This document shows, in pieces, positions 30,330 to 31,949 of a stretch of DNA of 64,000 bases (positions are counted from its first letter, which is position 1; each line of letters opens with the position of its first letter). The position numbers were made by a program, and so were the translations under genes. The stretch lies in the NCBI RefSeq assembly GCF_021083185.1, contig NZ_JAIGQB010000001.1:62001-126000 (forward strand). Reading direction: 5' to 3'. The notes beneath the pieces were generated by a model. That model did no database searches. It worked only from the letters and a program-made list of their open reading frames with translations, and was not told the origin of the DNA. The stretch is from Nocardioides furvisabuli (lineage in GTDB: Bacteria; Actinomycetota; Actinomycetes; Propionibacteriales; Nocardioidaceae).

Positions 30330-30474
30330 CCCCACCGCGTCGTACGCCTCGACCCGCCCACCGGTGCGCCGGTGCGGCGGGTCGTGGCAGTCCGGGGCTG
30401 TGTTCCGGGGTGGTCACTGGTGCTCGTGTGGCACGATCACCTCACTGGTGTCGGGGGTGAGCGGGAGGTGCGTC

Positions 30475-31482
30475 ATGCCCTTGGGGCAGCACGAGCGCGC
30501 GATCTTCGAGGAGCAGGCCACCCCGCTCTACGAGGAGATCGTGAGCTCCGGCGGGATCGCCGTGACCGACGAGCGCATCGGCCGGCGCGGGGAGCTCCAG
30601 CGGGCCTTCGAGCTGCTCGTGGAGGTCGGCCTGGTCGTCAGGAGTGACGACGAGGCCTACTGGCGCGCCGTGGACCCGGCGGCCGTCCAGGCGCGCGTGG
30701 TGGCCCCGTTGGGCCAGCAGGGCGCCGAGCTGATCGCGGAGTCCGCCCACTGGGCGCAGGCCTTCAGCACCCTCTCCCACGCCTGGCGTCGCTCGCCCAG
30801 CGCCGTCGGCGGGCCCTTCGCGGAGATCCGCGGCCTCGCGACCATCGGGAACTTCCTCGCCTCACTGGTCAGTGACGCCGAGGTCGAGCTGCTGACCGCC
30901 CAGCCGCAGGACCGTCGCGGAGTCAAGCAGCTCGGTGAGGCCGGCGCCCGGGAGATCGCCGCCCTCAAGCGCGGCGTCAAGATGCGCACCCTCTACCAGC
31001 ACGCGGCCCGCCGCGGCACCGACACCCGCAAGTACGTCGCCGCAGTGTCCGCCGCGGGCGCCGAGGTGCGCACCCTCGACGAGTTCTTCAACCGCCTCAT
31101 CGTGGTCGACCGGCGCATCGCGATCATCCCGAGCCACGAGGGGATGAACGCCGCCATGGTGATCAGCGACCGCTCGATGGTGGGCTACCTCGTCGACATG
31201 TTCGAGCGCCACTGGGAGCGGGCGCGGCCCTTCACCAGCAGCGAGACCTCCCTGATGCGTGACATCGCCGCGGAGCAGCGCGCGATGACCATCCGCATGC
31301 TCCTGGAGGGGCGGGCCGACCCGGCGGGCGCCAAGCGCCTCGGCGTCAGTCCCCGGACGTACGCCGGCTACGTGGCGGACCTGAAGAACGAGTTCGAGGT
31401 GGAGACCCGCTTCCAGCTCGGCTACGAGATGGGCAAGCGGGGGATCTCGGGCCGCGAGACCGACGAGCCCTCGACGAAGTAG
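30475..31482 (+). CDS. PLD-like/TrmB-type regulator with C-terminal HTH
   Basis: About 335 residues. The N-terminus is a winged-helix-like segment (to about 75). The middle (about 115-240) contains LKRGVKMRTLYQHAARRGTD and VRTLDEFFNRLIVVDRR, typical of the phospholipase-D-like sensor region of actinobacterial LuxR/TrmB regulators. The end (about 265-325) is a helix-turn-helix: AMTIRMLLEGRADPAGAKRL, then GVSPRTYAGYVADLK. ATG 30475 follows GGGAGG. Its 3' end faces a terminator and the convergent gene of a 44-residue secreted peptide. In my experience such regulators often sit beside small secreted peptide genes in actinobacteria, so a signalling pair is suspected. Otherwise, a stand-alone metabolic regulator. 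Confidence 0.8.
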   Translation: MPLGQHERAIFEEQATPLYEEIVSSGGIAVTDERIGRRGELQRAFELLVEVGLVVRSDDEAYWRAVDPAAVQARVVAPLGQQGAELIAESAHWAQAFSTLSHAWRRSPSAVGGPFAEIRGLATIGNFLASLVSDAEVELLTAQPQDRRGVKQLGEAGAREIAALKRGVKMRTLYQHAARRGTDTRKYVAAVSAAGAEVRTLDEFFNRLIVVDRRIAIIPSHEGMNAAMVISDRSMVGYLVDMFERHWERARPFTSSETSLMRDIAAEQRAMTIRMLLEGRADPAGAKRLGVSPRTYAGYVADLKNEFEVETRFQLGYEMGKRGISGRETDEPSTK

Positions 31483-31502
31483 CGCGGGTCGGGGAAATGA
31501 GG

Positions 31503-31532
31503 CAAGGGCAGCGACCCATGTCGCTGCCCTTG
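31503..31532. terminator. bidirectional hairpin between regulator and peptide gene
   Basis: Perfect 13-bp stem, CAAGGGCAGCGAC with GTCGCTGCCCTTG, around a CCAT loop. It lies 20 bases past the regulator stop and 108 bases past the peptide stop on the other strand, so it can end both convergent transcripts. Confidence 0.8.
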
Positions 31533-31639
31533 CTGCCGGGACTGGCCTGTGGGGGAGGCCTTCCGGACCAGAACTCGTGGGGGGTTGAGGGGGTCCGTGT
31601 CCCGGCTCTTCACTGCGTGCACATCATGGCACGGCTGGC

Positions 31640-31774
31640 TCACTTCTTGACGACGACCCGGCCACCCCACGTGGTGTCGATGCCGGCGCTGGCCGCGCCC
31701 ATCGGAACCACGGCGAAACCGAGTCCGAGAGCCGCCACGAGGGCTGCTGCTGCGATGCGGCGTACAGGGGTCAT
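31640..31774 (-). CDS. 44-residue secreted peptide ending in a DTTWG-type core
   Basis: Small gene on the minus strand, 44 codons plus stop. The precursor has a classic Sec signal: MTPVRR, then a hydrophobic AAAALVAALGLGFAVV, and a signal peptidase site after ASA (residue 30). The predicted mature peptide is 14 residues, GIDTTWGGRVVVKK, basic at its end. AAGGTG lies just before ATG 31774 at good spacing. The gene is convergent with a PLD-like/HTH regulator, with a shared terminator between them. Its high G/C third positions and clean signal peptide support a real gene. It might be an exported pheromone or cue for the regulator, or an unrelated exported peptide. No enzyme function is expected. 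Confidence 0.7.
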   Translation of the reverse strand: MTPVRRIAAAALVAALGLGFAVVPMGAASAGIDTTWGGRVVVKK

Positions 31775-31949
31775 TGTTTTTCACCTTTGCTCATGTCGCG
31801 GTGTCACAGGGGATGACCAGACCATTCTCACCCACCGTCCGGGGTCACGTCCCACCGAACGATCTGCAGGTCTGTGCATTGCAGGATCCTGCAAAGGAGC
31901 CGTCGGCCGCGCGTCGGCCCCCTCACGACGGAGGGGGCCGACCCCTGGG

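Follow-up and report, generated by a model that had tools for sequence, protein, structure and literature searches.

A short gene for a secreted peptide and the gene of a TrmB/LuxR-type regulator that faces it, both located in a 64,000-nt window of Nocardioides furvisabuli DNA (the window being the whole stretch that was analyzed), very probably encode a signaling pair in which the peptide is a re-imported pheromone read by the PLD-like domain of the regulator. The pairing of the two genes is conserved, the peptide core is conserved and its copies agree within a precursor, core and regulator residues covary, the fold of the regulator is recognizable, and the loci have a common operator; these are results at the level of sequence. 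The first-pass annotation of this DNA had suggested a signaling system with the peptide read by a one-component regulator, and pairing, repeated core, common operator and covariation all lend support to that suggestion.

A secreted peptide gene beside a TrmB/PLD-LuxR regulator gene

The 44-codon ATG frame that had been called on the minus strand was found as claimed, and its convergence with the regulator gene is borne out by coordinates and strands (Table 1). The encoded precursor consists of MTPVRRIAAAALVAALGLGFAVVPMGAASA, followed by the predicted cut and then by GIDTTWGGRVVVKK. When precursors were scanned against Pfam and NCBIfam, no family scored above its cut-off. We place the start of the regulator at the ATG at 30475, where close relatives begin too; the ORF list opens the same frame at the GTG at 30364. 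The "perfect 13-bp terminator" reported between the genes is indeed a perfect hairpin (-33 kcal/mol, z -4.8), with a stem of 15 bp and no T-run after it. A PEPCK gene (identified by Pfam) lies upstream of the regulator gene, and a tRNA-Ser(GCT) gene lies upstream of the peptide gene; only tRNAs exceeded the gathering score when the pair region was compared with Rfam.

Table 1. Features of the peptide-regulator locus and the hairpin RNA copy of the same genome (window positions, except where a contig is named)
Feature	Position	Strand	Remarks
Regulator, proposed peptide receptor, 335 aa	30475..31482	+	TrmB-like N-terminal part, long helix, PLD-like domain, C-terminal LuxR/NarL-type HTH
PLD-like domain, residues 112-255	30808..31239	+	Proposed peptide-binding domain
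Codon of residue 139	30889..30891	+	Streptomyces counterpart (Met/Val) tracks core residue 2
Codon of residue 157	30943..30945	+	Tracks core residue 2 in 23 close Nocardioides
C-terminal LuxR/NarL-type HTH, residues 255-322	31237..31440	+	Profile match
Perfect 15-bp hairpin between convergent genes	31501..31534	+	Arms 31501-31515 and 31520-31534; terminator-like, without T-run
Secreted peptide precursor gene, 44 codons, ATG	31640..31774	-	From ORF list
Core D-T-T-W-G, residues 33-37	31664..31678	-	Proposed signal unit
Sec-type signal, residues 1-30	31685..31774	-	Predicted cut after ASA; by eye and crude signal filter
Ribosome-binding site AGGTGAA	31780..31786	-	
Conserved promoter and leader	31803..31829	-	-10-like GAGAATGG and GTCATCCCCTGTGAC; element names are our reading
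Operator TGCA-N6-TGCA-N-TGCA-N6-TGCA	31865..31893	-	About 91 nt before peptide ATG; block kept in 23 close relatives
Own hairpin RNA copy (L303)	G000:C12:227589-227692		Operator 10/12

The pairing was assessed in 66 related loci, 54 from Nocardioidaceae and 12 from Streptomycetaceae, by a uniform test that accepts an ORF of 25-140 codons with an ATG or GTG start, a crude Sec-type signal and [DEN]xxW after residue 18, at a distance of at most 700 nt. Such an ORF lies downstream of the regulator gene, in convergent orientation, in 53 of the 54 Nocardioidaceae loci, and upstream of it, in divergent orientation, in 10 of the 12 Streptomycetaceae loci; control windows from the same loci were positive once in 373. 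Conservation of the peptide beside the regulator, on which the earlier proposal had been made to depend, is thus present in two families. Among the misses, L088 has a short ORF that ends in DTSWG and is devoid of a signal sequence, in L116 the far end of the candidate, 749 nt away from the regulator match, slightly exceeds the 700-nt limit, and L123 yielded no peptide by the filter. A second set of 30 loci (L031-L060, including that of the window and drawn partly from the same genomes) gave 29 positives with a looser filter; L057 keeps a DTSWG core without a clear signal sequence. The cores that lack a recognizable signal (L057, L088) and the locus in which the filter found none (L123) count against the peptide being a pheromone.

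In Streptomyces, a divergent precursor was present in all 12 regulator clusters examined and in all 19 loci with the exact Streptomyces operator (17 found by the filter and two by hand, the latter with NSSW or NTSW, where N replaces D); these two sets have two genomes in common (G190, G075). Among more distant members of the regulator family the linkage weakens, with such a peptide near only 5 of the 48 examined, which is a further point against a pheromone. Possible peptides of other types (DNTSWG, DLPW twice, GNLGW, PDDDW, DDTGWD) were noted near the distant paralogues L161, L168, L169, L191 and L157. Streptomyces loci L177-L188 contain two to four neighboring paralogous regulators, with one recognized peptide gene each, and a Clp-like gene occurs near the pair in L180 (Pfam) and, judged by eye, in L115 and L120. 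A gene for a protein of about 110 aa occurs in 41 of the 43 Streptomycetaceae loci compared, which include two genomes twice, and in none of the 54 Nocardioidaceae loci; it directly follows the precursor gene in L180:1659-1991(-) and L120:3229-3546(-) and has no Pfam match. Its presence suggests that the system may have more parts, and we count it against the pheromone reading. By eye, the protein resembles a degenerate Rieske fragment.

Across precursors, the repeated element is a core [D/E/N]-x-x-W in 1-10 copies, for example DSTW (L269), DSGW (L180), EPTW (L120), DPGW (L115) or three times DTSWG (L065); the precursor of Streptomyces albidoflavus NRRL B-1271 contains EPTWE seven times. At least two cores are found in 37 of the 90 distinct precursors, with a maximum of ten, and in these 37 the second and third core residues agree in 204 of 206 pairs of copies from the same precursor versus 486 of 6,815 pairs from different precursors. 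The copies of the L269 precursor differ in their fifth residue (DSTWS, then V, A, T and I in its place); hence the constant unit is a tetrapeptide. It is followed by G or P in most Nocardioidaceae precursors. Neither the D and W of the core nor their codons vary among 23 close Nocardioides, whereas core positions 2, 3 and 5 show synonymous codon changes. The product had been predicted to be a 14-residue basic peptide; its D-x-x-W core is conserved, but the 14-mer as a whole is not, the tail being variable. Of 51 distinct Nocardioidaceae precursors, 44 have no more than 0-2 residues between their last [AVSTGI]xA site and the core that follows it. Some Streptomyces precursors are longer than 100 aa.

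The PLD-like sensor region that had been assigned to the regulator is weak in Pfam (PLDc_2, E 0.09; DUF7436 under its cut-off) and clear by profile and fold searches. When a profile of 49 relatives was used, residues 7-250 aligned with archaeal TrmBL2 (E 8e-12) and residues 255-322 with HTHs of the LuxR/NarL type, the best at E 2e-6. The AlphaFold2 model has a mean pLDDT of 82.8 and a pTM of only 0.52, so that the arrangement of its domains is uncertain. It matched the TrmBL2 structure 5bpi (Foldseek E 3e-12), and PLD-fold proteins such as NucT matched model residues 112-253 with a Z of 18.5 and an rmsd of 1.9 for 135 residues. With the register set by eye, the HKD positions correspond to F205, R207 and D212, the first two being replacements and the third being kept; in the profile of 49 relatives D212 is invariant and R207 nearly so. 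Because HKD residues are replaced, catalysis by the PLD-like domain has presumably been lost. Pfam, profile and fold comparisons revealed no tetratricopeptide repeats (TPR) in the regulator. An AHL-type LuxR regulator was ruled out, since no AHL-binding domain was found among Pfam matches up to E 1. A DUF7436 search returned no Streptomyces among its matching controls; several regulator homologues on Streptomyces plasmids carry the annotation "LuxR C-terminal-related".

Covariation of the peptide core with regulator residues

The case for the regulator as the probable receptor is built chiefly on the covariation of its residues with the core. In 29 distinct Streptomyces pairs (window numbering), residue 139 follows core position 2: the 19 pairs with Ser there all have Met139, and the 10 with Thr, Ile or Val there all have Val139. 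The distance-corrected r is 0.90, compared with 0.45 for the next-best column and a maximum of 0.47 in 60 permutations. The permutations take no account of relatedness, and more weight belongs to changes that recur in parallel: on the regulator tree, residue 139 and core residue 2 each change seven times by parsimony and agree at every tip, and the sister pairs L182/L273, L276/L285 and L271/L272 differ at both. Core position 3 is weakly tied to residues 148, 184 and 193 (0.28, 0.26 and 0.24 versus a permuted maximum of 0.23).

Nocardioidaceae regulators are only about 30% identical to those of Streptomyces. Met139 is found there in five of six DSSWG pairs and in no pair with a core-2 residue other than Ser, and Leu139 is found in both DSAWG pairs. 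Ser at core position 2 thus goes with Met139 in only 5 of 8 Nocardioidaceae pairs; the residue rules are local, and this counts against a pheromone. A second rule holds in a set of 23 close Nocardioides pairs, whose regulators are more than 80% identical to that of the window (L114 left out): all 15 pairs with DTxWG have Gly at residue 157, and none of the 8 with D[IYF]TWG does. The Fisher value is 2e-6, compared with 2.8e-4 for the best of 40 permutations, and residue 157 and core residue 2 change three times each. L114, which at 75% identity served only as outgroup, combines DYSWG with Gly157, which breaks the rule and also speaks against the pheromone reading; more distant DTxW pairs have other residues at position 157. 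Residues 121, 125, 126, 129, 133, 154, 160 and 163 are associated with core residue 2 as well and, in the model, lie on two helices of the PLD-like domain. Residues 49, 99, 169 and 217 show some association with core residue 2, yet are located outside those two helices.

Operator sites, secreted metalloproteases and a hairpin RNA

The operator word TGCA-N6-TGCA-N-TGCA occurs also in many, not all, divergent loci, and in Streptomyces a related invariant element lies between the divergent genes. In its exact form, the Streptomyces element is found once each in 19 of 41 genomes and is absent as an exact word from the other 22. The exact Nocardioides operator was counted manually at 60 places in 37 genomes of the genus (that of the window included), namely at the peptide promoter in 21 genomes, at 35 examined places (34 regions) and at four others. 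That only 21 of 37 genomes have the exact operator at the peptide promoter goes against the pheromone reading. The exact word occurs just twice in the genome of the window: at the peptide promoter, and upstream of a gene for a secreted metalloprotease, with its first base 98 nt from the gene start.

Secreted zinc metalloprotease genes start near 11 of the 35 examined places: four are matrixin/M57-like (including the one in the genome of the window), one is M43 and six are M4, as called by Pfam for L229, L230, L235, L240, L247 and L255 and by similarity for the rest. A hairpin follows at 18 of the 35 (14 clear, three weak model matches in G012, G015 and G036, and L250 with the tip only), and neither protease nor hairpin was found at six. 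At one of the four other places, G030:C328, the operator precedes the hairpin match of the same genome by 128 nt. On both strands of the 37 genomes the operator matched 74 times versus 32 for an imperfect control, the pattern read backwards, which is a different word with CpG and hence a rough yardstick only; this comparison counts against a pheromone. The operator count alone is therefore not strong, whereas its placement is. At L231 and L233 the operator is retained beside a ychF-like gene, and the metalloprotease of relatives is missing there. Two Nocardioides genomes (L253, L256) have a double operator between genes that by eye are DUF3263-like and methionine-aminopeptidase-like. A single TGCA regulon for the whole order was considered and rejected: four of the TGCA places examined in family f3, which belongs to that order (L265-L268), adjoin genes that by eye are PadR-like, and are probably unrelated.

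The hairpin RNA has a stem of 29 pairs, with compensatory changes at 17, and its tip reads TCTCGGG in all 14 sequences compared. The covariance model derived from them matched 36 of 37 genomes of the genus, of which 14 had supplied the model and some match weakly, and none of 21 other genomes. Most genomes have a single locus, G016 has two, and G001 has a weak match in addition to its first. In all 30 loci examined, an operator-like word that keeps at least 10 of the 12 fixed bases lies 148-179 nt before the hairpin tip; the operator had led to 14 of these loci, so that the independent count is 16 of 16, and control windows reach this score in 2 of 356 cases. Both strands of the RNA score in the model, and its direction thus rests on the operator. 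Four loci (L237, L242, L248, L261) gave no Rfam match at gathering score. In most of the loci compared (among L288-L317), the RNA lies between HAD-hydrolase and DUF4439-like genes.

Proposed circuit, alternatives and known systems

By analogy, we suggest export of the precursor through Sec, with signal peptidase cleaving it at the core or immediately upstream. The tail would be trimmed outside the cell, and multi-copy precursors would yield several identical signals. A permease, probably an ABC transporter for oligopeptides in general, would import the short peptide, and the presumably dead PLD-like domain of the regulator would bind it. The loaded regulator may then act at the operator of the peptide gene itself, activating it in positive feedback, and at the operators of the secreted zinc metalloproteases and the Nocardioides hairpin RNA.

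Three other explanations appear less likely, since none of them predicts the covariation. The peptide could be a secreted bait, whose fragments report extracellular protease activity or export state, not cell density, and allow the regulator to adjust protease production. We consider this improbable: in its favor, the operator is also found before three kinds of secreted metalloproteases, and longer precursors have to be cut for the core to be released, but core copies are identical within a precursor and different between species, as for a private signal, and regulator residues follow the core, for which a generic protease sensor would have no need. Quite unlikely, too, is that the peptide gene is a mere target of a regulator whose own ligand is different, for example a sugar as in archaeal TrmB. 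The TrmB-like sensor region and the operator at the peptide promoter would fit; the repeated covariation of core and PLD-like domain in two families would have no reason. Least probable is a bacteriocin or modified natural product (RiPP) under an adjacent regulator: repeat-bearing precursors resemble some RiPPs, one match to thiovarsolin is weak and sub-threshold, and the gene for the protein of about 110 aa accompanies the peptide gene in Streptomycetaceae, but the window pair lies between PEPCK and tRNA-Ser, with no modification, immunity or export gene recognized among the few window neighbors scanned, and regulator residues covary with the core.

If the peptide is indeed a pheromone read by this regulator, the pair of Nocardioides and Streptomyces, the latter being a main source of antibiotics, would represent a new receptor class. 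It supplies ready synthetic tetra- to heptapeptides for testing, and the covariation provides a starting residue code for specificity. We know of no identification of the signal that Streptomyces coelicolor imports through BldK; the pair may bear on which peptides actinobacteria import as signals.

Linear gene-encoded peptide pheromones that are read intracellularly by a transcription factor are known from Firmicutes. The circuit logic is already known, and the receptor class would be new. No description of the peptide-regulator system was found among the literature matches listed, from a search that covered few subscription papers and no preprints, and a description that we have not seen is possible. 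Several identical signal units in one exported precursor are familiar from the yeast alpha-factor, from which the present system differs in being bacterial, in its tetrapeptide core and in the proposed cytoplasmic transcription-factor receptor. The window regulator has the winged helix, long helix and PLD-like domain of archaeal TrmB/TrmBL2; unlike these, it has an additional LuxR-type HTH at its C-terminus and a secreted peptide gene as partner, and archaeal TrmB itself has a sugar-binding domain (structure 2f5t). With actinobacterial LuxR-type solos it has in common the C-terminal LuxR/NarL-type HTH; its sensor, in contrast, is PLD-like, and an AHL-binding domain was not found. The main text of a survey of actinobacterial LuxR solos (PMC3466318) contains neither "TrmB" nor "PLD".

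According to PMC10075063, RRNPP systems are defined by a secreted propeptide of 10-100 aa encoded beside a receptor of 250-500 aa with tetratricopeptide repeats; an oligopeptide permease imports the mature peptide, which the intracellular receptor binds. The signals of Actinomycetota are described there as typically enzyme-made small molecules (PMC10075063). Like the RRNPP systems of Firmicutes (PlcR-PapR, NprR-NprX, Rgg-SHP, Rap-Phr), the pair described here joins a small Sec-type propeptide gene to that of a putative intracellular DNA-binding receptor, the sizes of both products (44 and 335 aa) fall within the RRNPP ranges, and extracellular proteases are among the likely targets. Proteases are also controlled by NprR-NprX and PlcR-PapR. 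Unlike in RRNPP systems, the putative receptor is TrmB/PLD-like with a LuxR-type HTH, and phylum, signal motif and operator differ; as no TPR was found in it, the pair is not a member of RRNPP. More tentatively, TrmB/PLD-LuxR proteins may be a general class of cytoplasmic peptide receptors of actinobacteria, with [D/E/N]-x-x-W signals, a small residue code (139, 157, 148 and neighbors), several paralogues per genome of which many perhaps answer peptides encoded elsewhere, and, in Nocardioides, a circuit driving secreted proteases and a structured RNA. Such a class would be the actinobacterial counterpart of RRNPP.
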